A stretch of 64,000 nt of DNA from a virus. Shown one piece after another: positions 1-22,736 of this stretch. The DNA lies in IMG/VR virus record IMGVR_UViG_3300032088_001800, positions 1 through 64,000 of that record; one strand, 5' to 3'. The notes beneath the pieces were generated by a model. The model made no database searches. It was given only the letters and a program-made list of their open reading frames with translations, and was not told the DNA's origin. The position numbers and the translations under genes are program-made. Within the stretch, counting starts at the first letter, position 1. Each line of letters begins with the position of its first letter.

Positions 1-1139
1 AGTCTTATGTCAGTAATTTTGTCATACTCCTCATCAAATAATTCAGGAAATGTTTCATATCCATAGTGACGTAGAAAGTGTAGTGTGTTTACTTGGCTTG
101 CAACTAAGAAAGGATGAAAATTAACAATTGGCTGATAAATTTTTTCTGTTATGAAAAGTACGTCTTCTACATTTACAGGTTCGTATGTTGTTTCTGTAAC
201 AAAAGAAAAATCACTATCTAAATAATGATGATTAATTAATGCACGTTGATTGTATCCTTGTTCTATTTCAGTTCCGTCATAATCAATAATGTAAGGAGCA
301 TCTTGTAGGAACATGTTTAATGGCTGTTCAAGGCTTTTGTGATGTTCTTCATTTAAACAATATTTGTCAATACTTTCATACATTGCATCAGTATGAAATC
401 TATCTACATGAGGTTCAAAATATCTATTCAACCAACTGTAATAACTATGTCTTAGTAAATCACGTTTATAAAATTCCGCTGCAAAGAATACACGTTGATG
501 TCTTGGATTGGCATTCTTAAATATAAACCGTTTGCTTTTTGGAGCATCGTAGTTTAGAAACGTGTCTACATCTAATGGCTTATCGTCCATTTGTGTAATT
601 TCCATATTATACGTTGCTTCAAAACTGTCCATGCCATATACGTTAATTTCACTGTAGCCTTTTCTCTTTCGCCAAGCTGCAAAATTTTTCTGTATGTTTA
701 TATCACCAAACACAAGAAAAACTTTATGTGCAGGTATTGCTAAGTCTTTAACACAGAAATCAATAATTTCCATAAACCTTGGCATAGTTAAACTAAAGCC
801 TTCATTTGGAAACCATAATAGTAACTTTAGTTTACTATCTAAATCACGTATTAGATTCAATGGCTCTTCATCAATATGTTCAAATACATTACGATATACA
901 AATGCATGGTCAATCCAATCAATTTCAATATGATAGAAAGCTGGCTGTCCTACATAGTCCTTAGGAGTAGTACGCTGAACAGGTATATCTAGATAGTCAC
1001 ATACTTCTGTAATAAACTTTGGCTTTACACTCTTAAATTGATTGTACTTATATGCTTCTCTAGTACGCAACTCTTTAGGAACACCATTTGGTATCCATTT
1101 CTCGCCAACAACTCCGGATTGGTAATACAGCGTTATCAT
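1..1139 (-). CDS. GT10-like glycosyltransferase-related protein (partial, C-terminus off the left edge)
   Basis: The frame is open from an ATG at 1139 to the window edge, about 379 codons, so the C-terminus is missing. The start overlaps the stop of the upstream SGNH gene in an ATGA arrangement, which supports it. Near the visible end is the motif FITEKIYQPI followed by FLRHYGYETF and FDEEYD. The same pattern occurs in the gene at 1939-2919, so the two are paralogues. A TEK motif followed by a stretch ending in a Tyr/Phe-rich turn recalls the C-terminal donor-binding half of GT10 fucosyltransferases. That resemblance is remote, and the enzymatic role is inferred. No signal peptide or membrane segment is visible. 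It is the last gene seen in the accessory operon, so a role in making or modifying a glycan fits its neighbours. Confidence 0.6.
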   Translation of the reverse strand, partial: MITLYYQSGVVGEKWIPNGVPKELRTREAYKYNQFKSVKPKFITEVCDYLDIPVQRTTPKDYVGQPAFYHIEIDWIDHAFVYRNVFEHIDEEPLNLIRDLDSKLKLLLWFPNEGFSLTMPRFMEIIDFCVKDLAIPAHKVFLVFGDINIQKNFAAWRKRKGYSEINVYGMDSFEATYNMEITQMDDKPLDVDTFLNYDAPKSKRFIFKNANPRHQRVFFAAEFYKRDLLRHSYYSWLNRYFEPHVDRFHTDAMYESIDKYCLNEEHHKSLEQPLNMFLQDAPYIIDYDGTEIEQGYNQRALINHHYLDSDFSFVTETTYEPVNVEDVLFITEKIYQPIVNFHPFLVASQVNTLHFLRHYGYETFPELFDEEYDKITDIR

Positions 1140-1948
1140 GTGTATGCTCCTTTAAAGTGTGGTAGCCAAAAGTTTTGTACAAAATCTTCGTGTGCTTCGT
1201 AACTAGGATGATTATCGTATCCATCGTCCCATGTGTTTAGATTATTGAGTGTATACTCTCGAAGCCCGCCGTCTTCATTGTCTGTAAACAAAAACTTATT
1301 CCAATGTATTTCATCTTGTAAAGTTACAAACTGATCAGCACACCATGTTTTGTATTCTTTTACAAATGCTCTGAATGTAGTAAATCTATATTCCCAACCT
1401 TTAAGTTCGCACATCTGTTGAACAAGCAAAATATTCGAAAGTGTTTGATGCCACATAGCATTTTGATTCCACATAAACTTTGAGTAAGATCTAAATGCAT
1501 CTACATACTGTATGTCAATATCAAAGTTATTGCTCCACCTTGTTTTTTCACTAACGTTACCGCCATTCAATAACCAATAATTTCCTGTTATTTTTTGAAT
1601 GTCACCGTTTGCACTTGTTAGTGCATATACTCCGGGATTCATATCGTTATTAGATTCAGTATTGTTTTGGAATAACATATCTACATAAGGTGTTTCTGTT
1701 TCATGTAGTGGAAATTCGCTTCTAGTAGGAGAACTCCACATGATGCTTATGTCAGGCGTGAATCCTTCTCGTTCTGCTTTCAATGCACAGTCAATTACAG
1801 CACTTGCAATAAATTTATTGCCGGCTCCGCTTTTACTTACATTCCGAGAATTGTTATAGTTAAGTAAATCACGTTGGATAACTCTTGCCCAGCTATTATG
1901 CATGTCTGTAAAGCTACATCCTCCGAATATATGAAATTTTACAGCCAT
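1136..1948 (-). CDS. SGNH/GDSL hydrolase-like protein
   Basis: This 270-residue protein begins with a short strand and GGCSFTD (residues 9-15), matching block I of SGNH hydrolases, with Ser12 as the likely nucleophile. A Gly/Asn-containing stretch, SKSGAGNKF, follows at about residue 40. Near the C-terminus DNHPSYEAHEDF (about 245-256) looks like the block V Asp/His motif. Such enzymes hydrolyse or transfer ester groups such as acetyl or acyl chains on sugars and lipids; the substrate here is unknown. It has no signal peptide, so it should act in the cytoplasm. It overlaps the upstream gene by 10 bases and sits between two paralogous GT10-like genes, which suggests a common glycan substrate. 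A second SGNH-like gene lies at 5898-6599. Confidence 0.72.
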   Translation of the reverse strand: MAVKFHIFGGCSFTDMHNSWARVIQRDLLNYNNSRNVSKSGAGNKFIASAVIDCALKAEREGFTPDISIMWSSPTRSEFPLHETETPYVDMLFQNNTESNNDMNPGVYALTSANGDIQKITGNYWLLNGGNVSEKTRWSNNFDIDIQYVDAFRSYSKFMWNQNAMWHQTLSNILLVQQMCELKGWEYRFTTFRAFVKEYKTWCADQFVTLQDEIHWNKFLFTDNEDGGLREYTLNNLNTWDDGYDNHPSYEAHEDFVQNFWLPHFKGAYT

Positions 1949-2919
1949 GTTTGTATTTCCTCATTTGATATCTTCATTTGTAAAAATCGTTGCTGATTAT
2001 ACTTTAGTCTTTGTTGTATATCATTTTTATCTATTGAATCTATGCTATTAAGATATTTACTTAGACTGTGTATTGCACTGTTGAATCTTGATACATCTTC
2101 GTGAATTGTATCGTATGTGTTGTCTAGTATATCGTCAAATGTATCATATCCTTGTTGCCTTAAGAATTCTAATAAATTAGGCTGTCCTATATACAATGCT
2201 AGATGGCAGTTTGCAATAGGCTTCCAAGTTTTTTCTGTTATAAATAATCCTCGACTAGCTTCAGGATACGTTTCAGTTACTAAACTAATACTTGTTTCTT
2301 CATATATCCATTTATTATGTAATCTATCATTTTTGTGTATCTCGCCATTTGATCTATCAACAACTAGATGACGATGGCTGTTACGCATGTGGTCAATTTC
2401 TGGTGTATCTTTTTTGTATATTTCTTTAAATGTATCGTAGTGATAATTGTTATCAAGCTGGTTATACCTATTTAGGAAACTTACTAATCCAGTATCATAC
2501 AACCCTGTGTCGTATAACATTTGTAGGGTATAGTAACGATGCCAGTCAGGCCTTCCATTCAAGCACAAAAACTTTTTAGCAAATGTATTTTGATTATTTG
2601 TTTGTACTCCTAATTCCTTTATATGTGTAAGATAGTCGTATGCCCAGTAATTAAAGAATATGCCTTTAGACATATTTGCGTTACAGTGAATTACTTTGCC
2701 AAAGTTGTTGAAGTAATCAATATCTATATATGCAGGATCTCCTTCAGTATGAAATATTACTAGCGGAGTATCTTTGTCATATTCTATATTACCTTTGCCT
2801 TCTATATGCTCACATATCTGCAGATTGCCATTAAAGTCTGAATATTTTTCAATGACAGAACCTAGTCTATTAGTATCAAGACACTCAAATGTACCTTTTG
2901 CTAAAGTAATTTTTGCCAT
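1939..2919 (-). CDS. GT10-like glycosyltransferase-related protein
   Basis: This 326-residue protein is a paralogue of the partial gene at the left edge. The shared C-terminal block contains FITEKTWKPI, then LYIGQPNLLEFLRQQGYDTF and an Asp-rich tail. This block is widespread in marine T4-like phages. It recalls the C-terminal nucleotide-sugar-binding half of GT10 fucosyltransferases, although identity is low and the function is inferred. The N-terminal half contains FLCLNGRPDWHRYYTLQMLY, which would be a separate lobe. It overlaps the upstream radical SAM gene by 19 bases and the downstream SGNH gene by 10, so translation is probably coupled. No membrane segment is visible. Other sugar-nucleotide transferases are possible. 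Confidence 0.6.
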   Translation of the reverse strand: MAKITLAKGTFECLDTNRLGSVIEKYSDFNGNLQICEHIEGKGNIEYDKDTPLVIFHTEGDPAYIDIDYFNNFGKVIHCNANMSKGIFFNYWAYDYLTHIKELGVQTNNQNTFAKKFLCLNGRPDWHRYYTLQMLYDTGLYDTGLVSFLNRYNQLDNNYHYDTFKEIYKKDTPEIDHMRNSHRHLVVDRSNGEIHKNDRLHNKWIYEETSISLVTETYPEASRGLFITEKTWKPIANCHLALYIGQPNLLEFLRQQGYDTFDDILDNTYDTIHEDVSRFNSAIHSLSKYLNSIDSIDKNDIQQRLKYNQQRFLQMKISNEEIQTWL

Positions 2920-3758
2920 AAACTTACACTTTCAAATCCGTTTTGCGTGCCGCTAGTATTACATCCTTTACACGCTGCTAAACTACTTCGGTTACCTTTG
3001 TCTAATTTTTTTCTAACTTCAACAAATTGTTCACTATTCCATAATTCACTAAATGCTGTATTGTTAATATTTCCAAATGGTTGTTGTTTCCTACTCCAAT
3101 CGTTACAGCATAACCGGACTTGTCCGTCCCAGTCTATAAATGCTTTGTAAAATGGTAACCAACAAGGCCTAAATACAGTTTCTTCTTTTGATACTAGTCC
3201 TCCTCGGTTATTGTAATTGTATTGTTCAATCAAATCCGGACTACCAGTATCGTGATGATTTCGTATACGATAACTTATGTTACAATCTTGCAATAGATCT
3301 TGCACTTTGTTGTACTGTTCATTGCCATCATAACAATCAACAATAAGCATACTAAGTCCTGCATCAGATAATTGTGTGTGAGTTAATTGGCCTGACAAGA
3401 GTCTATCGCCGTTAGTAATAATTTCTGTGTAGTATACAGAAAATATCTTTATAAGTTCAAGTATCTGTGGATTGAGAGTAGGTTCGCCAAATCCTGTTAT
3501 ATGTATGTCGCCAGTATAATTTGCTGCTTGCAATCCTTTGACAAGATTGTTTGCTGTGTCTAATGTCATTTGTAAATTTTGATTAGGATATACCGCAGGA
3601 TTACTACGTGGACAAAAACTGCACGTTCTATTACATAACTCAGTAGGATTAACTTCAACAACTCCTAAGCCTAGTAGTAAAGGATTACCAATGTTAGCTT
3701 TTAGATATCTGTTGTTCCTATAACTAATATGGTCTTGGACATTAAAATTTTGAGACAT
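2901..3758 (-). CDS. Radical SAM protein with C-terminal SPASM-like cysteines
   Basis: With the ATG at 3758 the protein has 285 residues. The radical SAM cluster motif CNRTCSFC is at about residues 42-49, followed by a glycine-rich GFGEPTLN segment that would contact S-adenosylmethionine. The C-terminal part carries RPCWLPFYKAFIDWDG, RLCCNDW and CKGCN, cysteines placed like those of a SPASM auxiliary iron-sulphur domain. SPASM enzymes usually modify ribosomal peptides, proteins or carbohydrates; the substrate here cannot be read. A TTG at 3794 would add 12 hydrophobic residues but overlaps the upstream gene by 53 bases, so I prefer the ATG, which overlaps by 17. This protein differs from the other four radical SAM proteins of the operon, whose auxiliary cysteines lie at the N-terminus. 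Confidence 0.88.
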   Translation of the reverse strand: MSQNFNVQDHISYRNNRYLKANIGNPLLLGLGVVEVNPTELCNRTCSFCPRSNPAVYPNQNLQMTLDTANNLVKGLQAANYTGDIHITGFGEPTLNPQILELIKIFSVYYTEIITNGDRLLSGQLTHTQLSDAGLSMLIVDCYDGNEQYNKVQDLLQDCNISYRIRNHHDTGSPDLIEQYNYNNRGGLVSKEETVFRPCWLPFYKAFIDWDGQVRLCCNDWSRKQQPFGNINNTAFSELWNSEQFVEVRKKLDKGNRSSLAACKGCNTSGTQNGFESVSLWQKLL

Positions 3759-4788
3759 AACTATCAGGAATAATAAGTTTATTACTCCAATCAATTCCTT
3801 TTCGATTTGCAGGATGCTCGTTGTTTATAATCACAATACTTTTGTCTTTTGTATGTGTTACACACTTTTGCGGGTCAACAAATAATAATAGTTCAAATAT
3901 ATCACCTAAGAATTCTTTTTCTATATGTATACTAATACCACTATACGCACACTTGCTTGGCAATTCTTCCATTGGTAAGTTGCATTGTAGTAAATCAAAT
4001 TTATTAAATAGCCCTTTAGTACGATCAAAGAATTTAAAGTTTAACATGTCCGTATGCACTTTGCAGTCAGTTGGATTGTTTACTACCATAGGCAAACTTC
4101 TAAACACTAAATCACTCCATTGATCTAATTTAATTTGTGTAAAGCCTTCAAAGTTTGTTGGCATAAGTTTTTCGGGCCAAGCGTCAGAACCTAAAAATTC
4201 GTATGTAAAGTCTTTGGTTGTTTTACCAGTATCTACACTGTTAACAAATAAACGTTCCTCAACTTCTGTTCTAAACAATATTGTATCGCTACTCAGTAAA
4301 CTTTTGCGCAATGTTTCTTCATCAGTTATTACAACACCTTTATCACGTAGTTCTTTAAATGCATTTTGTTCTTTATGTACAGTAAGCATTAAAGGCATTG
4401 TCTTACAATTAAGAAACTTTGCTGCTACACACCTATTGGTTCCGGGATGAACCATATATGTTCCATCGTCCATATGATTTACTGCCTTGACACTATTCTT
4501 CCATCCGGTCTGACAATAGCTTTGTACTAACCAAAGTATTTTTTCAAAATGATGTACAACTATGTTTTCACCGCCCATTGGTGTAATTAATGCTTTAACT
4601 GAAAAATCTTCAACTACACTTTTTGCAATACTCTTATCACCATGCGGATTTTCTAACAGCCAATCATGTAATCTATCTTCGTCAAACTTTAGCCACCAAC
4701 GTAATGTCTCCATTGGTGCTTCAAATAATATTACAACGTGGTCATCAAACCAATCTTTATCAAAGAAATCTTTACCTTGAGTAGACAT
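3742..4788 (-). CDS. Protein with ParB/Srx-like motif, function unknown
   Basis: This 348-residue protein starts at an ATG with a good Shine-Dalgarno AGGAG 7 bases upstream. The only recognisable motif is HPGTNRCVAAKFLNCKTMPL at about residues 113-132. It resembles the GxxR-xxAAkxLG-xxxvPv box of ParB/sulfiredoxin-fold nucleotide-binding domains. The remainder (an aromatic-rich N-terminus and a C-terminus with IVIINNEHPANRKGIDW) matches nothing I know. ParB-fold domains use CTP or ATP in chromosome partition, DNA modification and phosphotransfer. In an operon of radical SAM enzymes and glycosyltransferases a kinase-like or nucleotide-binding role is as plausible as DNA binding. It follows the radical SAM gene at 4790-5905 by one base and overlaps the next by 17, so it belongs to the same transcript. 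Confidence 0.5.
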   Translation of the reverse strand: MSTQGKDFFDKDWFDDHVVILFEAPMETLRWWLKFDEDRLHDWLLENPHGDKSIAKSVVEDFSVKALITPMGGENIVVHHFEKILWLVQSYCQTGWKNSVKAVNHMDDGTYMVHPGTNRCVAAKFLNCKTMPLMLTVHKEQNAFKELRDKGVVITDEETLRKSLLSSDTILFRTEVEERLFVNSVDTGKTTKDFTYEFLGSDAWPEKLMPTNFEGFTQIKLDQWSDLVFRSLPMVVNNPTDCKVHTDMLNFKFFDRTKGLFNKFDLLQCNLPMEELPSKCAYSGISIHIEKEFLGDIFELLLFVDPQKCVTHTKDKSIVIINNEHPANRKGIDWSNKLIIPDSYVSKF

Positions 4789-4789
4789 A

Positions 4790-5905
4790 TTACTCTCCTA
4801 ATAATAGTGTGTTTAGTTCAGGAAATACTTGTGCAAAATTTTCTTCCCTGTGTTTATCTAATATATGCGTATATTTAAAGAAACTATCAATTGCTCCGTT
4901 GCAATTAGACATTTGATCTGCAAATGGTTTGAATTTATCATTGCTAAGTTTATCTTTAATTACTTGATGTGCATGTTGAGGTATTGCTTGCACATTATAG
5001 TGCTTAGGCCCATGTAGTGCGTTTAAGAACAACCGGTCTTCAGGAAGACCAAGTGTGTTAAACCATTGTTGAAATTCTGGCAAATATAATATATTAAAAA
5101 TATTTACAGTGTGGCAAATACTTGTGTGCAAGAACGGTTGTTCATTTGCAAAACGCAGATTACTTTCAGCTTCTTTCCAAACTGCTGGATGACGTTGGTA
5201 TTCAAACTGTTTGCCTGTGCCGTCAATACTAAACATAAGTTCAACCCATTTAAATTCTTTCCAAAGATCTAACATTTTTTGTGTGGGCTTTATTGTAGTA
5301 TTAGTATTATAGTGTAAACTAATTTTATGTGCATGACCTCTTTCTACACACTTTTCTAATAATTCAAAATGTTTCTTAATTAATAAAGGTTCACCGCCTG
5401 TGAAATCTAGCCATTCAATATACTCAATTACTCTTTCAAGGTCACGCCAAATAGGACTATTATCTTCTATCCAGTAACTTTTAAGGTTAGGATTAAGAAC
5501 TTCTCCGTATAATAATTTTTCATCTTCGGCCCATTTGAAACTGCTAAAGCTACTACATATTCTGCACTTTAAATTACACACTGTTCCTAGCTTTAGATCA
5601 TAATAGATAGGCGGACCTAGTTTTCCAATCCTATGAAACATATGTTCAAAGCGTTCATTATCTGCTTGACGTTTACTACGTATACCCTGCGATTCGTTTT
5701 TCCAACATTGGTTACAACCAGCAGGTTTCTTTCCTGCTAAGAAATCTTTGCGCAATGTTTTCATTTCTTCACTAGACCAGATTTTGCTTAGACCGTCTGT
5801 GCCAAAGTGTCCTACAGGCGGGCCTTCATATAAGCAACAAGGCTTTGCATTGCCTACTGCATCAGCTTCAATATGTATCCAAGGATTTATACAAATATCA
5901 CTCAA
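4790..5905 (-). CDS. Twitch-type radical SAM protein (short class)
   Basis: The 371-residue protein opens with CINPWIH and a cysteine pair KPCC (residues 23-24), then GCNQCW (64-67). This is an N-terminal auxiliary iron-sulphur region of the type found in twitch/SPASM-like radical SAM proteins of marine phages. The catalytic cluster motif CNLKCRIC is at 110-117 and the SAM-contact motif FTGGEPLL at about 168-175. The auxiliary cysteines come before the TIM-barrel core, the reverse of classical SPASM enzymes. The protein is close in plan to the gene at 6596-7786. The reaction is unknown, though proteins of this kind commonly modify peptides or small molecules. It overlaps the upstream SGNH gene by 8 bases. 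Confidence 0.9.
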   Translation of the reverse strand: MSDICINPWIHIEADAVGNAKPCCLYEGPPVGHFGTDGLSKIWSSEEMKTLRKDFLAGKKPAGCNQCWKNESQGIRSKRQADNERFEHMFHRIGKLGPPIYYDLKLGTVCNLKCRICSSFSSFKWAEDEKLLYGEVLNPNLKSYWIEDNSPIWRDLERVIEYIEWLDFTGGEPLLIKKHFELLEKCVERGHAHKISLHYNTNTTIKPTQKMLDLWKEFKWVELMFSIDGTGKQFEYQRHPAVWKEAESNLRFANEQPFLHTSICHTVNIFNILYLPEFQQWFNTLGLPEDRLFLNALHGPKHYNVQAIPQHAHQVIKDKLSNDKFKPFADQMSNCNGAIDSFFKYTHILDKHREENFAQVFPELNTLLLGE

Positions 5906-6599
5906 TTGCGCTCCTAACCATAGGGTATATATATTCGTCTGCTACAAGTTTGTGTCCTTGAGGTGATATATGATAACCATTGTCAATGTAATGATTATTA
6001 TCTAAAAAGTTGTGTACACTATCTTGATGTACCGGTACTGGTAGTACTTTTTCTACATCTATAGGCGTTGGTACCCACGGAAAGAATATAATCTTGTCAC
6101 CAAAGTTTTCTATATAAGATTTAAGCATATCTAGTTGACACATTAATTGTTCGGTAGCCAATGTACTAAATGTATGATTTTCGTATAAGAATTTTGTAGT
6201 AGTGTCAATATCACTTTTCTTACTTAAACTATTAGAGTATTCACCTACAGTAATCTTGTGTGTCTTTTCTTCTGTTATTCCCCAAAGGCGTGTATGCTTG
6301 CCTTCTCGTGTCCATACTGGTTGTTCTAGATTGTCATGAAATCGGTTGTCTAGAAAATTTTTCTTACCACTAATAGATATTTGCATTCTATCAAATGTAG
6401 TTAACTGAAACAAAACAACTTTTGGTTTATACTTTTGGTAAAGTCTATATGCTGAGTATACTGCATACGCATTGTCTATGCCGGCATGTCCGCCATTTAT
6501 AACTGTTGTTCCGCACTTGTCTTGTAGATAAGCCGAAAAAGTTTCATTTGATTCTACACCAGTACCAAACGTCCAGCTGCATCCAATAGTAAGTATCAT
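5898..6599 (-). CDS. SGNH/GDSL hydrolase-like protein
   Basis: This 233-residue protein has a compact SGNH layout. Block I is IGCSWTFGTG (residues 5-14, Ser8 as nucleophile). NGGHAGIDNAY at about 35-45 is block II-like. FQLTTFDRMQIS at about 84-95 sits where block III would be. Block V is DNGYHISPQGHKLVAD with Asp206 and His210. The length is normal for a single-domain SGNH hydrolase and there is no signal peptide. Members act on ester-linked acyl or acetyl groups, and some transfer rather than hydrolyse; the substrate is not evident. It is wedged between two radical SAM genes with 4- and 8-base overlaps, implying a shared pathway. Its sequence has diverged far from the other SGNH-like gene at 1136-1948. 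Confidence 0.82.
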   Translation of the reverse strand: MILTIGCSWTFGTGVESNETFSAYLQDKCGTTVINGGHAGIDNAYAVYSAYRLYQKYKPKVVLFQLTTFDRMQISISGKKNFLDNRFHDNLEQPVWTREGKHTRLWGITEEKTHKITVGEYSNSLSKKSDIDTTTKFLYENHTFSTLATEQLMCQLDMLKSYIENFGDKIIFFPWVPTPIDVEKVLPVPVHQDSVHNFLDNNHYIDNGYHISPQGHKLVADEYIYPMVRSAIE

Positions 6600-7786
6600 T
6601 TTACCAAGTCCTGTAATTCAGGAAATGTTTCTGCAAAATTTTCATTCCTAATTATGTCTACCATTTCTATGTTTTTCTTAAACTCTAGTATTAGATGAGA
6701 TGTATCTGCATCATTCATAAATTTTGCAACTGATAAGAATCCACGCTCAACTCTTTCTTCGCCCCATCTCTTACACTTTTCTGCCATATCTGTATATTTT
6801 TTAGTTAATTCTTTTTTCATGCTTGCAGGTAGTATTTGTAAACTTAGATGCTCAGGATGATGGACAATGTTAATATGAAAGTCTCTTGGGTGTCCTATAA
6901 AGTTATCTTCTAATGCCCATTCGTAGAAATCTGTCATATGAAATGCATTTTGTACACTAACTGTAAAGTTAATAAAAAAGTTTATATCAGGTGCTTTTTG
7001 TATTATTGCTTTTCTATTAGCAACAATCTTATTCCAGTCAGTGCCTTTACGTATATATTCTGCTCTTGCGCCGTAGCCATCTATACTTGCTCCTACATGT
7101 ACGTTATCAAATCTAGGCCAAATGTCAAGAACATCAAGTTTTTTGTATCTTAACTGGCTAAGATTAGTATTATAACGAATGATAGTATCGTACTTTTGCA
7201 TTTCATCTAGTTTATTTAAGATACGGTAATGTTCTTCCATTAGTAATGGCTCGCCGCCAGCAAAATAAATATCTTCTACTTTATCAAATAACGGTTCTAT
7301 TTGATTCCACATGTTAATATTTTTACCTGGGTCAGGTAAGTCATTAGGTAATTGACCCCACATCTTTTTTTGATCTTCGTACCAACCTGTACTTAACTGT
7401 GGACCGCAACTTCTGCAACGCATATTACATATATTAGAAAATCTAAAGTCCCAGTAGTGTATACTTAAATCGTCTAAACTTCCGTCAGCATTTGTTGTTT
7501 GTAATAGATCCATATGATGTGAAAAAGTCTCATTCATATGTGTACGCAAACTTGTTCCGCCGTTTGATTCATTAATAAAGCAACGTTTACAACTTGCCGG
7601 TTGTTCATTGTTAAGAAACTGTGTACGTAGCTTTTTCATATCCTTGCCATTCCAAATTTCAGCAAGAGTATTTTCATTTAGATTACCGACTGAATCTTCC
7701 ATTGCTGTTAAGCAACAAGGATATACATCGTTGTTAGGCCATGTATGTAAATGTATCCACGGTGATATGCATTTGTTGTCAGTCAT
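6596..7786 (-). CDS. Twitch-type radical SAM protein (short class)
   Basis: The 396-residue protein has the same order of parts as the gene at 4790-5905. It has CISPWIH at the N-terminus, a YPCC pair (residues 24-25) and SCKRCF (66-69). The catalytic motif CNMRCRSC is at 120-127 and FAGGEPLL at about 175-182. The C-terminus ends in ENFAETFPELQDLV, a tail also seen as ENFAQVFPELNTLL in the paralogue. That shared C-terminal signature marks a family and may be a partner- or substrate-binding element. The start overlaps the stop of the upstream radical SAM gene by 8 bases. Function beyond radical SAM chemistry cannot be read. Confidence 0.9.
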   Translation of the reverse strand: MTDNKCISPWIHLHTWPNNDVYPCCLTAMEDSVGNLNENTLAEIWNGKDMKKLRTQFLNNEQPASCKRCFINESNGGTSLRTHMNETFSHHMDLLQTTNADGSLDDLSIHYWDFRFSNICNMRCRSCGPQLSTGWYEDQKKMWGQLPNDLPDPGKNINMWNQIEPLFDKVEDIYFAGGEPLLMEEHYRILNKLDEMQKYDTIIRYNTNLSQLRYKKLDVLDIWPRFDNVHVGASIDGYGARAEYIRKGTDWNKIVANRKAIIQKAPDINFFINFTVSVQNAFHMTDFYEWALEDNFIGHPRDFHINIVHHPEHLSLQILPASMKKELTKKYTDMAEKCKRWGEERVERGFLSVAKFMNDADTSHLILEFKKNIEMVDIIRNENFAETFPELQDLVK

Positions 7787-9224
7787 ATGTTGCTAGAGGC
7801 TCATCAATATTTTTTGGATCTGGCTTTAGTATCCAACCTTCTTTTTCTGCAAGTTCCATAATACTTGCATCAGTGTCTGGAATACTTTCAACCCAGTCTG
7901 TTAGTATTTTAGGAAATACACTTAGGCTTTTGTTCCTACGTACATCATATTGCTGATAGAAAGTTTTAAAGTCACGCCACAACGTAGCAGGGTTACTTGT
8001 ACGCCTATGCGGAGCATCTACTGTAACTAGGTAATCTATCAAACGTTCAATACTTGCCTTTTCAAACTCGTGCCATAATTCTTTGTCTTTGTTTGCTGCA
8101 TACCAAGTAGATAAATTTTTGTGGAGTTCATCTTTAATATGGTTAGGTAAAGCAAGTGGTGACTGAAAGCTAGGAAATCTCAAAAGGTTAACACTTACAC
8201 TTGGCCATTTACTTCCTGTTGTTTCTTTCAATTCATATATTTGATCTAAGAAATCTGTAATACTAAACAAGCATAAACTATTAATAGTCATCATTACATG
8301 TAGATTTGCATTTGCTTCTGACAATATACGCTTTACATTGTTTAACCATTGTTCATAAACTAGCCCGTCACGTATATATTCTGCTTGAGCACCTACAGCT
8401 TCACAACTTGTATAAATTTCAAAGTTCTTAATACCATGCGACTTTTGTATAAGTTTATCTATTATATCATTCTTAGCAATTAGATTACTATTAATTGCAA
8501 AACGCATCTTGCTATTTTGTGCTTCAAACCAATCAAACAATTTCCAAGTGTTATGGCTCATTAAAGGCTCGCCGCCTGTAATGCGTAGTTCTTCTAAACT
8601 ACTGCTAAGTCCGTTTTCCCACCATTTCCAAAATGCTTGAATGTAAGGATTATCGTCATCATCTTTGTAAGGTTGTGTCCAACTGCCGTCTTGTCTAAAT
8701 GCACCAGCACCATCACTTACTAAGTTTGTGTACTCGCCATTCTTTTTAATATCTTTAGCCCATGTGGTTGAGAAACTTGCATTACAATAACTACATGCTA
8801 AGTTACACGTTCTGTCAAACGCAATTTCAAAAGTTTTGAGGTGAACATTTTCTGTGTAGTTCATATCGTATGCACGTTGTAATTCGTCGTCATCATAGAT
8901 AATAGTTTTAAAGACTCTGTCACTAACAGCATCTTTTTTCATATCTTCCATTTTCCAACAATACTCACACTCACGTGGTCGTTGTCCAACTTGCATTTGC
9001 TTACGCATTTCTTTTTTGTGCTTTGTGTTGTGTATAGCAGTAAAGTCTGCTTCAACTTCTTCAAGCGGTATTTTGTGTGCCGGCGGGTGATGACAACTTG
9101 TAGTAGTGCCGCTACCTAACCATGTAGTTGCATTATACCATTTAGCACCACAGAAGCTAGGACTTTTAGCGTTAATAACTCTGTCTCTATACTCTGTTAA
9201 ACTTTCGTCGGGTTTCTTAGGCAT
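7779..9224 (-). CDS. Twitch-type radical SAM protein (long class)
   Basis: This is a 481-residue protein. The N-terminal auxiliary region differs from that of the short class. It has SFCGAKWYN (Cys25), SCHHPPAHKIP (Cys44) and ECEYCW (Cys86 and Cys89). The catalytic motif CNLACSYC is at 140-147 and LRITGGEPLMS at about 213-223. It is a clear paralogue of the neighbouring gene at 9217-10590, with which it shares the CxAKW, SCHHP and ECxYCW blocks in the same spacing. The region after the cluster is longer than in the short class and contains NPYIQAFWKWW. The start overlaps the upstream stop by 8 bases. The substrate is unknown; two tandem paralogues suggest two related substrates or a heteromer. 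Confidence 0.9.
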   Translation of the reverse strand: MPKKPDESLTEYRDRVINAKSPSFCGAKWYNATTWLGSGTTTSCHHPPAHKIPLEEVEADFTAIHNTKHKKEMRKQMQVGQRPRECEYCWKMEDMKKDAVSDRVFKTIIYDDDELQRAYDMNYTENVHLKTFEIAFDRTCNLACSYCNASFSTTWAKDIKKNGEYTNLVSDGAGAFRQDGSWTQPYKDDDDNPYIQAFWKWWENGLSSSLEELRITGGEPLMSHNTWKLFDWFEAQNSKMRFAINSNLIAKNDIIDKLIQKSHGIKNFEIYTSCEAVGAQAEYIRDGLVYEQWLNNVKRILSEANANLHVMMTINSLCLFSITDFLDQIYELKETTGSKWPSVSVNLLRFPSFQSPLALPNHIKDELHKNLSTWYAANKDKELWHEFEKASIERLIDYLVTVDAPHRRTSNPATLWRDFKTFYQQYDVRRNKSLSVFPKILTDWVESIPDTDASIMELAEKEGWILKPDPKNIDEPLATYD

Positions 9225-10590
9225 TCCAGTCCTCTAATATTTCTCTATATTCAGGAAACACTTTCCTAAAGTTTTTTCTTCTACGTTTATCGTATGCTTG
9301 TATGTATCTTACAAAATCCTGTCTATGTTCAATAGCTGGCTCAGAATTACGTAAATAATCACAGAACCTTTTTATTTGATCCCACTCTTCTAAATAAAGT
9401 CTAGCAAACTTATCTGGGCTATGATACTTTAACCAACTTTCACAGGTAGACTCAATTGCACTTGCATATAGTTCTCTATCCTCAGTATCTAAGAGTGTGC
9501 ATTGTAAATGCGGTGGCCACCGCATAATGTTTATGCTTAGAGGTATCCTATTATATTCAAACGCTTTGTTATACTTTTTTCTAAAGTCCATTACTACGTT
9601 AATAAATTTCTCAAATGTTGGCAATGCTAATATGTTTATAGTTGTCATCATTGCTACTGAACTGTCAGTTTGGTCTAATACTTGTTCTACGTTTGTTATC
9701 CATTGTGCATAGTCTAACCCATCACGCGAGTATTCTGCTTGCTCACCAATACTTTCTAAACTTGTGTACACATCTATTTTTTTGACTTTACCTTTTAGTT
9801 TGTTAATTGACTCTATCAACTTTGTTATTAGTTTATCAGGAACACACAAGTTTGTGTTTATTGCTATTTCTAAATTAGGCTGTGGATTTTCTACTAGCAT
9901 GTCTAGAAGTTTCCATGTTTCTTTACTCATTGTAGGTTCGCCGCCAGTAATACGCAACACCTTTAAATGAGGTAACGCATCAGGAAACCATTTCCAAAAG
10001 GCCTTAACGTAAGGATTTACTTCACTGTTAAGGTAAGGAAACTTTTGTGTCTTTTTGAGATAACTTAGATCATGTGATCCGTGCTTTGTAGGATAAGATC
10101 CGTTTTGCTGTATATCTTCCATCCACTTACTGCTAATTTCAGGTGAACAGTATGAACATGCAAAGTTACATGCATTAGAAAAACTTACTTCTAAGTAACT
10201 TGGATATGTATTTTCATTAGGATTTGATTTTGCAATTTCATCAAATCTATCCCATGCCCAATAGTCGGCTGTCTTATAGTGTCTGTCACTAAAGTAATTT
10301 TTATCTAAGTCTTCTATGTTCCAACAGTAATCACACTCTTTTGGACGTTCTCCGTTCAGCATCATTTCACGCTGTTTCTTTTTGTGTTTACTATTGTGTA
10401 GTGCATGTGGATTACCCATTATTTCACTAATAGGTATTTTATGAGGAGCAGGATGGTGACAACTATGATTATATCCGTTTTGCAAGTATAATGTAGTTTG
10501 TAACCACTTAGCTGTACAGAAACTACAACTTACAGAATTTATCTGTTTCCGTTTCTGCTCAAGTAATTCGATGCGCTTTTCATTACTCAT
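9217..10590 (-). CDS. Twitch-type radical SAM protein (long class)
   Basis: The 457-residue protein is the tandem paralogue of the gene at 7779-9224. Its N-terminal cysteines are SCSFCTAKW (22 and 25), SCHHPAPHKIP (44) and ECDYCW (86 and 89). The catalytic motif CNFACSYC is at 141-148, and LRITGGEPTMS at about 212-222 contacts SAM. NPYVKAFWKWFPD at about 192-204 is shared with the paralogue. The C-terminus, KNFRKVFPEYREIL, echoes the FPEL tails of the short class, so all four twitch-type proteins in this operon probably descend from one ancestor. The gene starts within the stop of the upstream glycosyltransferase gene (4-base overlap). The reaction remains unknown. Confidence 0.9.
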   Translation of the reverse strand: MSNEKRIELLEQKRKQINSVSCSFCTAKWLQTTLYLQNGYNHSCHHPAPHKIPISEIMGNPHALHNSKHKKKQREMMLNGERPKECDYCWNIEDLDKNYFSDRHYKTADYWAWDRFDEIAKSNPNENTYPSYLEVSFSNACNFACSYCSPEISSKWMEDIQQNGSYPTKHGSHDLSYLKKTQKFPYLNSEVNPYVKAFWKWFPDALPHLKVLRITGGEPTMSKETWKLLDMLVENPQPNLEIAINTNLCVPDKLITKLIESINKLKGKVKKIDVYTSLESIGEQAEYSRDGLDYAQWITNVEQVLDQTDSSVAMMTTINILALPTFEKFINVVMDFRKKYNKAFEYNRIPLSINIMRWPPHLQCTLLDTEDRELYASAIESTCESWLKYHSPDKFARLYLEEWDQIKRFCDYLRNSEPAIEHRQDFVRYIQAYDKRRRKNFRKVFPEYREILEDWNA

Positions 10591-11513
10591 TCAGGATCAA
10601 TCACAAACTGTTGCTTTGGGTTTCTACTTGGGTTTTGGTATACCGTCTTAAAGAACTTGCTCTGTTGAGCGTCTAAGGGCTCAACAGCAATAGGAATATT
10701 TAATTCTTTTATTAATTTAGTTCCGAGTTCTGTAGAATAATACTCAATGTCTTCTTGTACTAATTTACCTTTTTCTTCCCACATAGCGTTTAGATATTCA
10801 AAGTCACGCACTTGTACATAATCCCAGTCAGTACACATTGTTTGGTACAGCCCTTCTCTAGCACCGTATATAGCCCAAGCACCGTTTCGTACATCAGAAC
10901 CTAGCATTAACCAAATCCATAATCTATGCAAATTCTTCCAATGACCTTTTAGAAATTGTTCTTGTGTAGGCTTTACACCTTGATCTAGTGCCATCTTAAC
11001 ACCTTCTCTAAATCCTGCACGCCATGCTTGTTGTGGTGTTTCGTTATTATATACATAACTGTAACAACTATTTTGTTGTATATACTTTAAGTCCCAACAA
11101 AAGTCTACTTGTGCATGTGGATTATCTGGATCTGCATTTTCGTGTGTTTTCATATCTAATACATACTGCTTTGGCCAACACTTTAGTCCGCCATTACCAT
11201 ACATAAGTCCATTAATAACATTTTTGCCGCACCAACTAATTACACTATGTTCCAAATCGGCGTGAGCGTCAAAGTCAATTTCTTGTACAAGGAACTCTGG
11301 GTTAATTTGATTGTCACCATCAACTGTAATAAATCTGTCAGTTTCACTTAATTTTGCACATGCTTTGTGTGCAGCGTCACTACCTTTTACTCCATGTACA
11401 CGTTTAGCCCAAGGAATCTTACTACACAAGTCCGCATAGTTCTTTTCAGCGTTAGGCTCGTCATAAGACAAATAGATTATATCATAATCAATAACTTTAA
11501 ATTTATTACTCAT
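10587..11513 (-). CDS. GT-A (GT2-like) glycosyltransferase-like protein
   Basis: This 308-residue protein begins with a Rossmann-like strand, DYDIIYLSYDEPNAEKNY, then KRVHGVKGSDAAHKAC. RFITVDGDNQINPEF carries a DGDN at residues 65-68, the position and form of the metal-binding DxD of GT-A transferases. This order matches family 2-type glycosyltransferases. The later part (WGAREG-like turns and several Trp and Tyr residues) does not match a family I can name. It probably transfers a sugar from a nucleotide sugar in the cytoplasm; donor and acceptor are unknown. It overlaps both neighbours by 4-8 bases. The alternative is a non-enzymatic GT-A-fold protein. Confidence 0.65.
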   Translation of the reverse strand: MSNKFKVIDYDIIYLSYDEPNAEKNYADLCSKIPWAKRVHGVKGSDAAHKACAKLSETDRFITVDGDNQINPEFLVQEIDFDAHADLEHSVISWCGKNVINGLMYGNGGLKCWPKQYVLDMKTHENADPDNPHAQVDFCWDLKYIQQNSCYSYVYNNETPQQAWRAGFREGVKMALDQGVKPTQEQFLKGHWKNLHRLWIWLMLGSDVRNGAWAIYGAREGLYQTMCTDWDYVQVRDFEYLNAMWEEKGKLVQEDIEYYSTELGTKLIKELNIPIAVEPLDAQQSKFFKTVYQNPSRNPKQQFVIDPE

Positions 11514-12123
11514 TAATTACCTCATGCTTATATGTTTCAAAATACTTTGCAGTATAAACGCTTACAACATTATTTTTAAATTCAAACTTTGATTCAAATG
11601 GAAAATTAAATTCATCTGTTTTAATTAAATCATTTACTGAAAGACGTAATGACCTTAATAGAATATTAGGATCGTACTTTTCTGTAATACTAAAGAATAT
11701 ATTACTATTAATATTTACTGCTTCTGAATTCAAAAATTCACGCAAAGACTTACTTACTTTAATTGTCCAACTTTGTTTAATATTATCTTGGAAAATAATT
11801 AAATCACAATCACCGTCAACAAACATAGGTACTTCATAAAGTGTATTGTATACGTGATCATTTTCAGTTTCTAAGTCGCCTCTTTCTCTAAGTGTGTATT
11901 CTTTAAGGCCAATGTCAAAAACAACTTTGTATTCATTCATTGTCTTTGTGCCAGACATGATCTCTGTTATACTATTTGCATCTACTTCAATATAAGAATT
12001 ATCATCGTTACCTTTTTTGCCTACTCTAATAAGTTCTCCAGTATCTGTGTCAAATTCTACAAAAGTTTTTGTTGGTACTTGTAGCCCTTGAATCATATCT
12101 AAGAATGTATTTGTTTCAGACAT
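11506..12123 (-). CDS. Hypothetical protein of the accessory operon
   Basis: I do not recognise this 205-residue protein. It is acidic, with many Asn, Asp and Glu residues, and reads as a mixed alpha/beta soluble protein. Strand-like stretches such as KTFVEFDTDTGELIRVGKK and CDLIIFQDNIKQSWTIKVSK suggest a beta-rich domain. There is no cysteine motif, signal peptide or membrane segment. It lies between the GT2-like and the GT8-like transferase genes with 8-base overlaps on both sides, so it is translated with them. It may be an accessory subunit or a substrate of the pathway. The reading frame is long, shares the operon's coupling pattern and has normal phage codon use, so it is almost certainly a real gene. 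Confidence 0.7.
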   Translation of the reverse strand: MSETNTFLDMIQGLQVPTKTFVEFDTDTGELIRVGKKGNDDNSYIEVDANSITEIMSGTKTMNEYKVVFDIGLKEYTLRERGDLETENDHVYNTLYEVPMFVDGDCDLIIFQDNIKQSWTIKVSKSLREFLNSEAVNINSNIFFSITEKYDPNILLRSLRLSVNDLIKTDEFNFPFESKFEFKNNVVSVYTAKYFETYKHEVINE

Positions 12124-12961
12124 CTAATAACTCCTCGTATCTCTTTATAACAGCGCCTTCTATAAAGTCTTTTTCTGTGTAATGTAAAATACCTGTTTGT
12201 ATGTGATTACCTAACTTTAAATTACAATCTTTATCCATATAAACACTGATTCTGTTTTGCCATTTGTTTATTGCTTCGTGCCAATCTTGTATTCTTGGCT
12301 TCATATGTGTAAAACTTGGAAACTTTACTCTTGTATTCGTAATTTCAGAGTCACAATCTAAAATCTTAGATACAATAGCTGCACTTACATCAATACTACA
12401 ACGCTTAGGATAATGTTCTTTAACATATTGCCCGTAGAATAATTCCCAATTATTAACTACAAGTTCTAACCAAGTATAAAACTTATGAGAAAACTCACAT
12501 TTCTTAAAGTAATGCAATCCTGAGTACAAGTTAGGCAATTCATTTGCAGTAAATGCTTTGCGATAATAATCACTAGTAACTAAATCACCTCTATACGTGT
12601 AAACATTACTTACAAAGTACATTTCATAGTTTTCTAAAAACTTTACCCATGAGTCAATATCTTGCAACACTAACATATCTGTATCTAACACCAACGTTCT
12701 TGTATAAGGAGATACATGATATATTTTCCAGCGATTTGATATTTTCCAATTTTCTTTTTCTGCACTGTCAGTCCATGGTATTTCAATAATGTTATCAAAA
12801 AATCTTTGATACTGTGCAGGTACTTCGTCATTAGTGATAAGACTAACAGGAATACCAGGATTAGTTTTTGCAATACTCATTGCTGTAACACATGCTTGCT
12901 GAACATAGTCGTCAACATCATTATTTTGCGCAAGCATTACAATACCAAAATTATCTTCCAT
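12116..12961 (-). CDS. GT8-like glycosyltransferase
   Basis: With the ATG at 12961 the protein has 281 residues. That start has a Shine-Dalgarno AAGGAG about 8 bases upstream, which makes it preferable to a TTG at 12979. The N-terminus has the GT-A pattern FGIVMLAQNNDVDDY and GIPVSLITND. Then RTLVLDTDMLVLQDID carries the metal-binding DTD at 93-95. This is the family 8 arrangement (glycogenin/LgtC type). The C-terminus contains HIQTGILHYTEKDF, with a His where LgtC-type enzymes hold the donor. It is a paralogue of the next gene upstream (12951-13808). It probably adds a hexose to a glycan or protein; the target is unknown. Confidence 0.75.
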   Translation of the reverse strand: MEDNFGIVMLAQNNDVDDYVQQACVTAMSIAKTNPGIPVSLITNDEVPAQYQRFFDNIIEIPWTDSAEKENWKISNRWKIYHVSPYTRTLVLDTDMLVLQDIDSWVKFLENYEMYFVSNVYTYRGDLVTSDYYRKAFTANELPNLYSGLHYFKKCEFSHKFYTWLELVVNNWELFYGQYVKEHYPKRCSIDVSAAIVSKILDCDSEITNTRVKFPSFTHMKPRIQDWHEAINKWQNRISVYMDKDCNLKLGNHIQTGILHYTEKDFIEGAVIKRYEELLDV

Positions 12962-13808
12962 TGGATGTCTCCTTGTCAATTTGTCTTACAAGACTAAATT
13001 TATTCATTACGTGAATACTTTGTCCTCTAGTTCGAAGTGCTGTGTATTCTCCTATATGTTTTTCTTTTTCAACTAAGAAAAGCATGTTGTCATTATCTAA
13101 ATCCCACAATATATCTTTATCTAAAGTGTACAATAGTTTTCCAGGCAAAGGTGTTACAAAGCCACCTTGCTGAAATCCATTCATCATGTGTATTGCTATA
13201 CTAAATGCAAAGTCATTTCTAAACATTTTGCTAGGTATTTGATAAACTCTTCTGTAGTGATCATATTCATCTTGTATATGTGCAACTAAATCAAAAAATC
13301 TTTCGTTAATACTTGTTTTTTTGAAGTATACAACAGTAGCCCAATAAAAATCTACACTACTATCACTTACATACTTAAATTCTCTTGGATTTCTAATGTT
13401 AGATATGTCTATGCTATCTCGATATATTGAAAAGTCATTTACACTACCAAATACATTTTTAAGTAAAGAGTTAGACACTACATAATCAGTGTCCATAAGT
13501 ATTGTTTCATTATACGGAGAGAATCTGTATGCATTAAATCTATCTAAATTTTTGAAATGCGCACGTTGGCTACTCATTGCGCCATCGTTGAATGTTCTGC
13601 CGTTGTCTTTAATCCAAGGTTCAATTGGAATAACCTGATCAAATACTGCTGTATCAAATTCACGTTCTAAATAATGGATAGAATCTGTTACTAGAGTCGT
13701 TGGCACGCCTAAGTATTGCTTTACACGTTTAGCTAAGAAATATGCTTGTTTGATATAATCAATTTGATCATTATTTCTAGCAAATAATAGTACGCCTTTG
13801 CTACTCAT
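12951..13808 (-). CDS. GT8-like glycosyltransferase
   Basis: This 285-residue paralogue of the gene at 12116-12961 starts KGVLLFARNNDQIDYIKQAY, followed by GVPTTLVTDSIHYL. ETILMDTDYVVSN carries the DTD at 106-108. The acceptor half has FYWATVVYFKKTS and NDFAFSIAIHMMNGF, and the protein ends near GQSIHVMNKF, where a His could bind the donor phosphate as in family 8. The gene overlaps the small first gene of the operon by 8 bases and the next by 11. Two GT8-like enzymes side by side suggest successive sugar additions to one acceptor. The enzymatic class is reasonably secure, the substrate is not. Confidence 0.72.
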   Translation of the reverse strand: MSSKGVLLFARNNDQIDYIKQAYFLAKRVKQYLGVPTTLVTDSIHYLEREFDTAVFDQVIPIEPWIKDNGRTFNDGAMSSQRAHFKNLDRFNAYRFSPYNETILMDTDYVVSNSLLKNVFGSVNDFSIYRDSIDISNIRNPREFKYVSDSSVDFYWATVVYFKKTSINERFFDLVAHIQDEYDHYRRVYQIPSKMFRNDFAFSIAIHMMNGFQQGGFVTPLPGKLLYTLDKDILWDLDNDNMLFLVEKEKHIGEYTALRTRGQSIHVMNKFSLVRQIDKETSNGR

Positions 13809-14151
13809 AGTCTACTAAATTTTCCACTGACCTATTTGACTTTATTTTTTCATATTCTGCAAAATAATTATTTGAAGCAGTAAAGTAAACATCTAAAATG
13901 TCGTCATAGAATGATTCTAAACTTAGAATGTTTGTAGGTATATCGTTGTCATCTGTAAGCACTGCTTCTTCAAGACCCTTTTCAACTAATAGACCTACAA
14001 ATGTAATCAGTTCTTTAGTAACAGAAAATTGACATCCGTTTGTATAGTACAATAAATCTTCAAAATATTTTTCTTTAAGTAATCTTTTTTGGTTATTCAT
14101 AGTAACCATGAAGTTACTAAAGTCCAATGCTTTTTCTAGACGTTCATCCAT
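13801..14151 (-). CDS. Small hypothetical protein, first gene of the accessory operon
   Basis: The protein has 116 residues and is not recognised. It looks mostly helical, with a charged N-terminus (MDERLEKALDF), a central KELITFVGLLVEKGLEE helix and an acidic C-terminus. The start has a GGAG Shine-Dalgarno 6 bases upstream and lies about 25 bases downstream of a sigma70-like promoter, so it opens the transcript of the accessory operon. It overlaps the downstream GT8-like gene by 8 bases. Its position suggests a regulator or an assembly or translation leader for the operon, but no motif supports any one of these. Confidence 0.7.
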   Translation of the reverse strand: MDERLEKALDFSNFMVTMNNQKRLLKEKYFEDLLYYTNGCQFSVTKELITFVGLLVEKGLEEAVLTDDNDIPTNILSLESFYDDILDVYFTASNNYFAEYEKIKSNRSVENLVDYE

Positions 14152-14174
14152 AAGGCTCTCCGAGTTATTATAAT

Positions 14175-14203
14175 AGTATATAATACTTTTTGGATTTTGT
14201 CAA
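14175..14203 (-). promoter_or_regulatory. Sigma70-type promoter of the accessory operon
   Basis: On the minus strand TTGACA (14203-14198) is followed by exactly 17 bases and TATACT (14180-14175). The start codon of the first operon gene is 24 bases further down. The element lacks the late TAAATA motif, so host RNA polymerase with its housekeeping sigma factor should read it early. The -10 lies in a near-palindromic AGTAT-TAT-ATACT. Confidence 0.7.
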
Positions 14204-14214
14204 GAAGAACCTGA

Positions 14215-15426: not shown

Positions 15427-15452
15427 GCGAGCTCCGTAACTGTATCACATAA

Positions 15453-15461
15453 CTATTTATG
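15453..15461 (-). promoter_or_regulatory. Late-type promoter element (CATAAATAG)
   Basis: On the minus strand CATAAATAG lies 27 bases upstream of the start at 15426. It matches the single-box late promoters of T4-like phages (TATAAATA), which need the gp55 sigma factor. Confidence 0.55.
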
Positions 15462-15466
15462 CGTAG

Positions 15467-16396: not shown

Positions 16397-16405
16397 AACT
16401 TTTCC

Positions 16406-22728: not shown

Positions 22729-22736
22729 TATTTATT
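22729..22736 (-). promoter_or_regulatory. Late-type promoter element (AATAAATA)
   Basis: Minus-strand AATAAATA lies 21 bases upstream of the ATG at 22708 and overlaps the stop codon of the giant virion gene. It would give the fibre genes their own late start. Confidence 0.45.

Follow-up and report, generated by a model that had tools for sequence, protein, structure and literature searches.

A fixed transferase-like core and an exchangeable radical SAM array beside the tail-fiber genes of an uncultured phage: a candidate pathway for saccharide tailoring

Cassettes of radical S-adenosylmethionine (radical SAM, rSAM) enzymes and glycosyltransferases near tail-fiber genes have already been published from marine phages (statements on published work, here and below, refer to the parts of those texts that were available). 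The host recognition cluster (HRC) of pelagimyophages is hypervariable and contains tail fibers and several glycosyltransferases, among which GT8 is the most represented family; rSAM cassettes appear in one comparison, and a UDP-glucose 6-dehydrogenase is listed (PMC7029224). The T4-like genome TARA_ERS488813_N000010 carries 12 rSAM genes, which were discussed via iron-sulfur (Fe-S) cluster metabolism (PMC5332604). Cyanophage clusters of transferases and tailoring enzymes have been proposed to change the surface polysaccharide or to make a metabolite (PMC7824862), and the ‘Moraphages’, uncultured large aquatic phages whose core genome includes four orthogroups of putative glycosyltransferases, have been placed outside the T4-type families and nearer to the Lak phages (PMC12619734). 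Here we describe an island of which 15 genes open the IMG/VR virus record IMGVR_UViG_3300032088_001800, a record of 135,383 bases whose first 64 kb (64,000 nucleotides) were analyzed and are hereafter called the window. The original prediction, made from the letters of the window alone, knew of no named system of this composition; rSAM cassettes together with glycosyltransferases (PMC7029224) and a genome with 12 rSAM genes (PMC5332604) had nonetheless been published.

We tentatively read the island as a phage-encoded cytosolic pathway that builds and tailors a saccharide, with a host-envelope glycan as its most likely target. It would be organized in two layers: a constant core, in which two GT8-like proteins and the GT-A-fold protein K stand together with O and L, and, downstream of it, an array in which radical-SAM enzymes of the twitch/SPASM kind and SGNH-like proteins can be exchanged; past the window this array would also take in a UDP-glucose/GDP-mannose dehydrogenase, methyltransferase-like proteins and other tailoring-type proteins. 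The anatomy of the island, its conservation, the purifying selection acting on it, its promoter motif and the family or fold of the rSAM enzymes, M and K are matters of observation. A phage-encoded pathway had been foreseen by the original prediction, and the idea is borne out in that the block is found in other contigs, its rSAM genes are under purifying selection and its transferase-type proteins are real. The features are the following.

14215–17905, minus strand: three fiber-type genes next to the island, two of the three with PHROG tail or structural matches.
14175–14203, minus strand: promoter motif TTGACA-17-TATACT, 24 bp before gene O, an 11/12 match to the consensus.
13801–14151, minus strand: O, conserved core protein of 116 amino acids, directly behind a fiber gene in 73/78 O-anchored loci (alignment A6).
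12951–13808, minus strand: N, GT8-like glycosyltransferase, aligns with M; four N-type rows in profile A4.
12116–12979, minus strand: M, GT8-like glycosyltransferase, ATG start probably at 12961; profile A4 was compared with glycogenin.
11506–12123, minus strand: L, core protein whose C-terminal part may be a beta-sandwich (AlphaFold2 pLDDT 84.7, pTM 0.59).
10587–11513, minus strand: K, predicted GT-A-fold protein with a conserved DGDN, the most conserved core gene (AlphaFold2 model and fold matches).
9217–10590, minus strand: J, N_Twi_rSAM (N-terminal twitch), NF033640 at 330.9 bits.
7779–9224, minus strand: I, N_Twi_rSAM, NF033640 at 303.7 bits.
6596–7786, minus strand: H, N_Twi_rSAM, NF033640 at 410.7 bits.
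5898–6599, minus strand: G, SGNH-like hydrolase, with G-C-S, N and H residues and weak PF13472 and PDB matches.
4790–5905, minus strand: F, N_Twi_rSAM, NF033640 at 353.9 bits.
3742–4788, minus strand: E, HPGTNR-motif protein, possibly ParB/SbnI-like (sub-threshold SbnI matches only).
2901–3794, minus strand: D, radical SAM protein with a C-terminal SPASM domain (PF04055 31.5 bits, PF13186 56.1 bits), ATG probably at 3758.
1939–2919, minus strand: C, GT10-like by motif only (TEK..KPI..G..LR..GY.TF block, consensus of alignment A7).
1136–1948, minus strand: B, possible SGNH-like protein, with a GCSFT start block and a conserved H.
3–1139, minus strand: A, GT10-like by its motif alone, truncated at the contig end; a whole copy of 439 amino acids lies in L007:16648-17967.

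The 15 tightly packed minus-strand open reading frames (ORFs) run from O to A, from 14151 down to 3, just as originally counted. By their coordinates the genes overlap at 13 of the 14 junctions, and the overlaps of 4–19 bp that had been described almost throughout occur at 11 of these; D and E overlap by 53 bp and M and N by 29 bp, values that shrink to 17 and 11 bp if the internal ATG is the real start, and E and F are separated by a 1-bp gap. All 15 genes recur in identical order in five contigs (L006, L007, L008, L009 and L011), which answers the concern that they might never co-occur elsewhere. Position 1 is the contig end, and the cluster does not stop there: in the three near-identical contigs L006, L007 and L011 the 15 genes are followed by further ones. 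In the relative G005 (L020, L021, L011) the genes continue for 42 kb, up to the contig end, with 44 ORFs as picked, one on the opposite strand; in G002 the island stops at a distance of about 40.6 kb from O, after the transporter gene tctA and one further protein, facing convergent genes. The full island thus measures about 40–42 kb, of which the window shows about one third.

The continuation is rich in tailoring-type families. Sixteen of the 44 G005 island ORFs have rSAM matches, some below the cut-off, and two carry B12-binding domains; there are also two matches to QueC and two to methyltransferase models (one of each over the cut-off), a UDP-glucose/GDP-mannose dehydrogenase (UDPG_MGDP_dh, PF03721, 71 bits), Redoxin and Nitroreductase matches and, last, TctA, and many ORFs match no family. 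TctA is the sole polytopic ORF by hydropathy, and a hydrophobic segment above 1.8 is otherwise found only in the over-long start of the nitroreductase. Since membrane segments are almost confined to TctA and the flippase family searched for is absent, the pathway appears cytosolic. Serotype-conversion operons of the gtr type consist of a membrane flippase and membrane transferases; the island does not fit this type, as only TctA is polytopic among its ORFs, and no search was aimed at GtrA. Between G002 and G005, genes x14–x27 are 91–100% identical with one proximal gene (x22) missing, and the distal genes x0–x13 are 38–99% identical with gene swaps. Because this variation is concentrated in the distal tailoring genes, it has the pattern of a diversifying product and fits a surface-type role.

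Several further observations concern this distal part. The TctA gene at the island end lies at L020:157-1449, and the protein after it in G002 (L023:2454-3227) has a signal-peptide-like start and gave an empty PDB search. Two QueC-like PP-loop genes lie inside the island of relatives (L020:3000-3599 and 14068-14742), and an rSAM gene outside their island (L022:8653-9630) is one that we take to be QueE-like by its motif; 7-deazaguanine or sugar-amidination chemistry is possible for these genes. A sub-cassette of a second K, x25 (no family match), the 74-amino-acid x24 and an S-type rSAM recurs (L021:1984-5793 and homologues), with x24 present in 28 of 80 K loci. Fe-S assembly genes are not a general part of the system, as the A-type carrier family PF01521 occurs in 2 of 12 hand-picked records and NifU_N in none of the 12.

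Across relatives, O-N-M-L-K forms a near-constant core, and variation is found mainly in the genes after K. A scan for K gave at least 594 stretches encoding a relative, of which the best 80 were analyzed with flanks of up to 10 kb (some loci are shorter); the samples anchored on O and on the structural gene at 22103–22708 are likewise the best 80 matches each, and the three sets are not random and share some contigs. Before K, the order fibers-O-GT8-GT8-L-K is found in 66/80 loci and the same order without a labeled L in 3, and the locus start cuts the remaining 11. K is followed by a J/I-like rSAM in 46/80 loci and by a different N_Twi rSAM in 7; in 13 loci each the next gene is a second K or another array gene, and in one it lies off the end; 8 of the 62 loci having at least 5 kb after K show no N_Twi rSAM. 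Around the structural anchor, 49 loci had at least 9 kb downstream: O is present in 41 of them, directly after a fiber gene in every case and with a GT8 gene next in 40, and the other 8 have no O in view. Seen from O, a fiber gene lies upstream in 73/78 loci, two GT8-like genes lie downstream in 72/76, K follows within five genes in 62/65 and an N_Twi rSAM within eight genes in 51/55. Among 12–13 larger records, which were hand-picked and four of which came from the K scan and hence have K by construction, K is present in 13/13, a second K-like stretch in 11/13 and NF033640 matches (E≤1e-10) in 11/12, up to 17 in one record. Outside the core the picture differs: D and G each occur in 2 of the 80 K loci within their flanks, and E and B in none, which does not agree with the proposal of one accessory operon, and the exact 15-gene set seems, from these sequence comparisons, to be confined to close relatives.

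Some loci stand apart. L171, L173, L174, L176, L177 and L181–L188, several of them short, have the core and two K genes with no N_Twi rSAM in view, and the 109-kb record of L171 has no N_Twi rSAM. Phage-like contigs in bacterial metagenome-assembled genomes (MAGs; L033, L034, L035, L103 and L104, labeled Pelagibacter, Betaproteobacteria, Rickettsiales twice and Rhodobacteraceae) show the order fibers-O-GT8-GT8-K-rSAM.

Within the core, the label GT8-like that had been given to M and N is upheld for the pair and not for either protein by itself: a joint profile, built from 30 M-type sequences and 4 of the N type, matches glycogenin over profile positions 3–105 (E 1.8e-7), with the DxD residues D101 invariant and D99 nearly invariant in the alignment, and neither M nor N alone has a Pfam match. 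K, which had been called GT2-like, matches no Pfam family at E≤0.1 and hence no GT2 model, yet its AlphaFold2 model (pLDDT 84.4) has a GT-A-like core that matches B4GALNT1 (VIA) with Z 10.5 over 142 residues (root-mean-square deviation 3.0); nucleotidyltransferases of the same fold score like GT-A enzymes against it. Residues D65, D67 and N68 are invariant in 31 K sequences, and the top Foldseek match, a weak one (E 2.3e-4, TM 0.22), is to a PBCV-1 transferase whose title cites glycosylation of the major capsid protein. On the strength of the model we take K to be a GT-A-fold protein, its transferase activity being only inferred. For L, every match in the fold search has Z<5, which does not by itself demonstrate a new fold, and a PDB profile search gave nothing useful. 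A comparison with 50,697 phage records gave no match at E≤1e-5 for K, M, O or the second K.

The five rSAM proteins are all genuine members of the family, as had been proposed. PF04055 matches each of them (E 2.4e-7 for D, 2.1e-7 for F, 1.1e-5 for H, 5.7e-4 for I and 1.9e-8 for J), three of the five reaching the Pfam cut-off, and the CxxxCxxC motif is intact in all five translations, with cysteines 120, 124 and 127 invariant across the 10 sequences of alignment A1. F, H, I and J exceed the curated cut-off of 170 bits for the N_Twi_rSAM model NF033640 (304–411 bits); D falls below it (44.5 bits), its match being confined to the SPASM part, residues 211–284. The nonsynonymous value pN is well below the synonymous value pS in each of the 17 genes for which the window was compared with L008, which together with the intact motifs rules out that the rSAM genes are remnants. 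Nineteen Vibrio phage records carry rSAMs 20–24% identical to H. On a FastTree tree of 228 N_Twi sequences (representatives only, midpoint root) the genes that follow K do not form one clade; phage and cellular tips are mixed, with 21 parsimony changes, an indicative result that argues against simple tandem duplication as the sole origin of the array. No function of the N_Twi_rSAM family was found in the open-access literature.

The remaining labels fared less well. SGNH catalytic blocks consist of GxS, N and DxxH; the G-C-S, N and H residues are conserved in 7/7 aligned SGNH-like sequences, and DxxH is not found in all of them. G reaches E 0.22 and 12.4 bits against PF13472, below the cut-off of 32.9, and B has no Pfam match, PF13472 included; against the PDB the SGNH-like set gives 10 weak matches (E 0.05–0.67), of which 9 are SGNH enzymes by name. 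The prediction that B and G are SGNH proteins thus keeps its conserved residues and weak structural matches and misses the family threshold, and both proteins may be SGNH-like. A and C match no GT10 family or solved GT10 structure in Pfam or the PDB (profile search included), and E gives only weak matches to SbnI (13.8 bits against a cut-off of 350; PDB SbnI E 0.76), so that neither the GT10 label of A and C nor the ParB label of E is established.

If G is an SGNH protein, H-G-F in the phage has the order rSAM-SGNH-rSAM, and a similar pairing is seen in bacteria. Of the 77 N_Twi rSAM loci found in genomes, 5 contain the phage core and appear to be binned phage contigs; none of K, M, N and O was seen in the others. 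When 103 proteins flanking bacterial N_Twi genes were examined (103 of 159 candidate entries, some of which were duplicates or over-long, with 5 phage-like and 16 repeat-MAG loci skipped), the top Pfam family was Lipase_GDSL_2 (PF13472) with 12 matches, followed by Lipase_GDSL with 6. In 20 genomes hand-picked from the 77 loci, 13 SGNH matches were counted at distances of up to 5 kb from an N_Twi gene, where 0.58 would be expected; all 13 come from 5 genomes, and the Poisson value presumes independent matches, an assumption that does not hold here. Around six loci chosen for SGNH proximity (66 of 75 entries used), GT2 accounts for 6/66 proteins and PhyH for 4/66. Contigs of the Elusimicrobia MAG bin-0981 (L045, L049, L050, L052, L073, L102 and others) contain tandem N_Twi rSAM runs, eight in L049.

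The island looks, from its upstream sequences, like a separate transcription unit of the sigma70 type. Of the 149 distinct sequences upstream of O, 108 have a TTGACA-17-TATA(A/C)T-type match of at least 10/12, compared with 4.3% of shuffles; the shuffles preserve base content only, and the better control is other gene starts, where the same match is found at 5/154 for N, 6/152 for M, 8/143 for L and 2/115 for I, and rarely at fiber starts (16/433, 18/214 and 3/10). The hexamers are the conserved part, and the spacers before O vary. Sigma70-type matches also occur before K (31/136) and before the second K (22/63), which makes inner promoters likely. The record of the window has 15 promoter matches of 11 or 12 (shuffles 3–10), and five of them sit 24–56 bp before the start of a gene: O, the late-sigma gene, the SbcD gene and two more. 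A late-type [ACT]TAAATA motif precedes fiber, baseplate and other genes (22/102 in this record), among them the fiber-gene starts 15426 and 17905 at distances of 26 and 23 bp. The exact motif TATAAATA is below chance in the window (5 against 11.55 expected), and since it is not enriched, the looser motif was read only directly before gene starts. One gene, 104470–105153, carries both motif types. Expression of the island is probably early, as it shares its promoter type with the late-sigma and SbcD genes, and an own sigma70-type promoter leans toward activity during infection.

In the pathway that we favor, host RNA polymerase would transcribe the island from its own sigma70-type promoter, probably early, and the core enzymes would attach sugars to a cytosolic acceptor. 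The rSAM enzymes would then carry out radical chemistry on these sugars or on the acceptor, and the SGNH proteins would add or remove acyl groups. The likeliest target would be a host-envelope glycan assembled on the cytosolic side, such as the core of lipopolysaccharide (LPS), and with the altered glycan the adsorption of phage to the infected cell would change as well. There are GT8 enzymes that act on the LPS core and rSAMs that act on sugars. This reading draws on the GT8 and GT-A assignments, the UDP-glucose/GDP-mannose dehydrogenase of the continuation, the bacterial neighborhood of N_Twi_rSAM and SGNH genes, the scarcity of membrane segments, the promoter before O and the variation of the distal genes. 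In this scheme the timing, the transferase catalysis, the acyl chemistry, the order of steps, the substrate, the target and the benefit are inferred.

Several points weigh against a host-envelope target. Neither an acceptor in the envelope nor a receptor is known, and the tools used identified neither host nor habitat. The flippase family PF01943, the only one searched, occurs in 0 of 12 hand-picked partial records, which makes synthesis of a whole O-antigen unlikely. The fixed position behind the fibers suits modification of the virion equally well, and the SGNH and GT10 labels are weak. In bacteria, 15 of the 20 genomes have no SGNH match within 5 kb, and GT2 accounts for only 3 of the 103 immediate N_Twi_rSAM neighbors. 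A TAAATA motif is present in about 15% of O upstream regions and 41/149 lack a strong sigma70 match, so that a minority of loci may use a late-type start before O; given the promoter-like matches before K and the second K, the island need not be one operon.

We rank the host-envelope glycan first, fiber modification second and a small molecule third. It is rather unlikely, in our judgment, that the island modifies the phage’s own tail fibers, with N, M and K glycosylating them before radical tailoring, so that receptor-binding proteins become chemically diversified. The case for it lies in the position of the core, directly behind a fiber gene on the same strand (41/41 structural-anchor loci with O, 73/78 O-anchored loci), in the weak Foldseek match of K to a transferase linked to PBCV-1 capsid glycosylation, in the cytosolic nature of the enzymes and in the late-type motif before O in some loci; the core nevertheless has its own sigma70-type promoter, unlike most fiber genes, and metabolic-type genes of the array (UGD, TctA) are not obviously needed at a fiber site. 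Less probable still is a soluble small molecule, a secondary metabolite derived from sugars or amino acids, such as was proposed for the cluster of the jumbo cyanophage S-SSM6a (PMC7824862). The continuation does encode B12-binding rSAMs, a redoxin, a nitroreductase, methyltransferase-like and QueC-like PP-loop proteins, and Pelagibacter phage Mosig has an analogous tailoring island; yet no nonribosomal peptide synthetase or polyketide synthase family was found among the scanned island ORFs, and the constant part is transferase-like, not scaffold-forming. Among small ORFs (at least 60 amino acids) one, x24, was examined: it is conserved throughout its 74 amino acids in 33 copies, without a leader/core pattern, which rules it out as an obvious precursor of a ribosomally synthesized and post-translationally modified peptide.

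Early expression together with glycosyltransferases is typical of DNA glucosylation, for example in T4. This combination, with the presumed QueE-like gene and the QueC-like genes in relatives, would suit transferases and rSAM enzymes that hypermodify phage DNA against host nucleases; we consider this improbable, as a thymidylate-synthase/hydroxymethylase family occurs in only 2 of 12 partial records and the linkage of the island is to fibers, and the TET family is found in 0/12 records, yet a control search gave no signal either. We also entertain a bolder version of the pathway that we regard as doubtful when taken as a whole: the fixed early transferase core would make a common saccharide scaffold, lineage-specific decorations would be written on it by an exchangeable set of rSAMs (about 16 at most) and SGNH proteins, the array would have been repeatedly accreted from different sources, and N_Twi_rSAM/SGNH would be a general bacterial saccharide-tailoring pair. 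If this were true, the phage would serotype the infected cell, or its own fibers, with radical chemistry.

Fiber-type, baseplate and tail-lysozyme genes lie upstream of the island, and late sigma factor, SbcCD and portal genes lie on the opposite strand. The portal and SbcC are closest (about 44–55% identity) to those of Sinorhizobium phage Phosso, Agrobacterium phage Atu_ph07 and PA5oct-type jumbo phages, and the portal is also near those of GAP32- and XbC2-type jumbo phages; because of this likeness to jumbo phages and because contigs bearing K reach 275 kb, the record probably represents part of the genome of a large-genome myophage. Between the baseplate and fiber genes lies a single ORF of 5294 amino acids (22732–38616, minus strand). 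Rfam and tRNA scans gave no matches, and a window protein of 525 amino acids has no match among isolate phages.

The island resembles published systems in part. In Pelagibacter phage Mosig EXVC030M (MT647606), an island between the tail fibers and VrlC resembles the one described here in that it contains, by the annotation of one stretch, three MoaA-like rSAM genes along with nitroreductases, methyltransferases, Asp/Arg hydroxylase-like genes and a peroxiredoxin; it differs in that no product in the stretch is named a glycosyltransferase and the sole query match is x23, at 21.5% identity over 54%. Many rSAM enzymes in one phage genome are also seen in TARA_ERS488813_N000010 (PMC5332604), whose Fe-S context is not reproduced here, given the scarcity of PF01521 and NifU_N. 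The cyanophage clusters are large and combine transferases with tailoring enzymes, as the island does; their epimerases, kinases and halogenase are absent from the island ORFs scanned, and the term ‘radical SAM’ does not occur in the available text (PMC7824862). The ‘Moraphages’ share with this phage that they are large and uncultured and have core glycosyltransferases, and the word ‘radical’ does not occur in the available text (PMC12619734). The pelagimyophage HRC likewise brings together fibers, glycosyltransferases and, in one comparison, radical SAM cassettes; unlike the HRC as described in PMC7029224, the island has a fixed O-N-M-L-K core and a promoter as its features, and it belongs to a phage with a jumbo-like portal and SbcC whose K, M and O are absent from the phage records searched. 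What we add to this literature is a core of fixed gene order, a promoter of its own, an N_Twi array of this scale, another phage lineage and the pairing with SGNH proteins; none of these was found in the searches of open-access publications. The island also offers handles for further work, namely a few core genes to express, K as a lineage marker and the N_Twi_rSAM/SGNH enzyme pairing. Overall, islands of rSAM enzymes and transferases beside fibers, published for pelagimyophages and akin in idea to the cyanophage clusters, also occur in a phage lineage that seems to be a separate one and is frequent among viral contigs.

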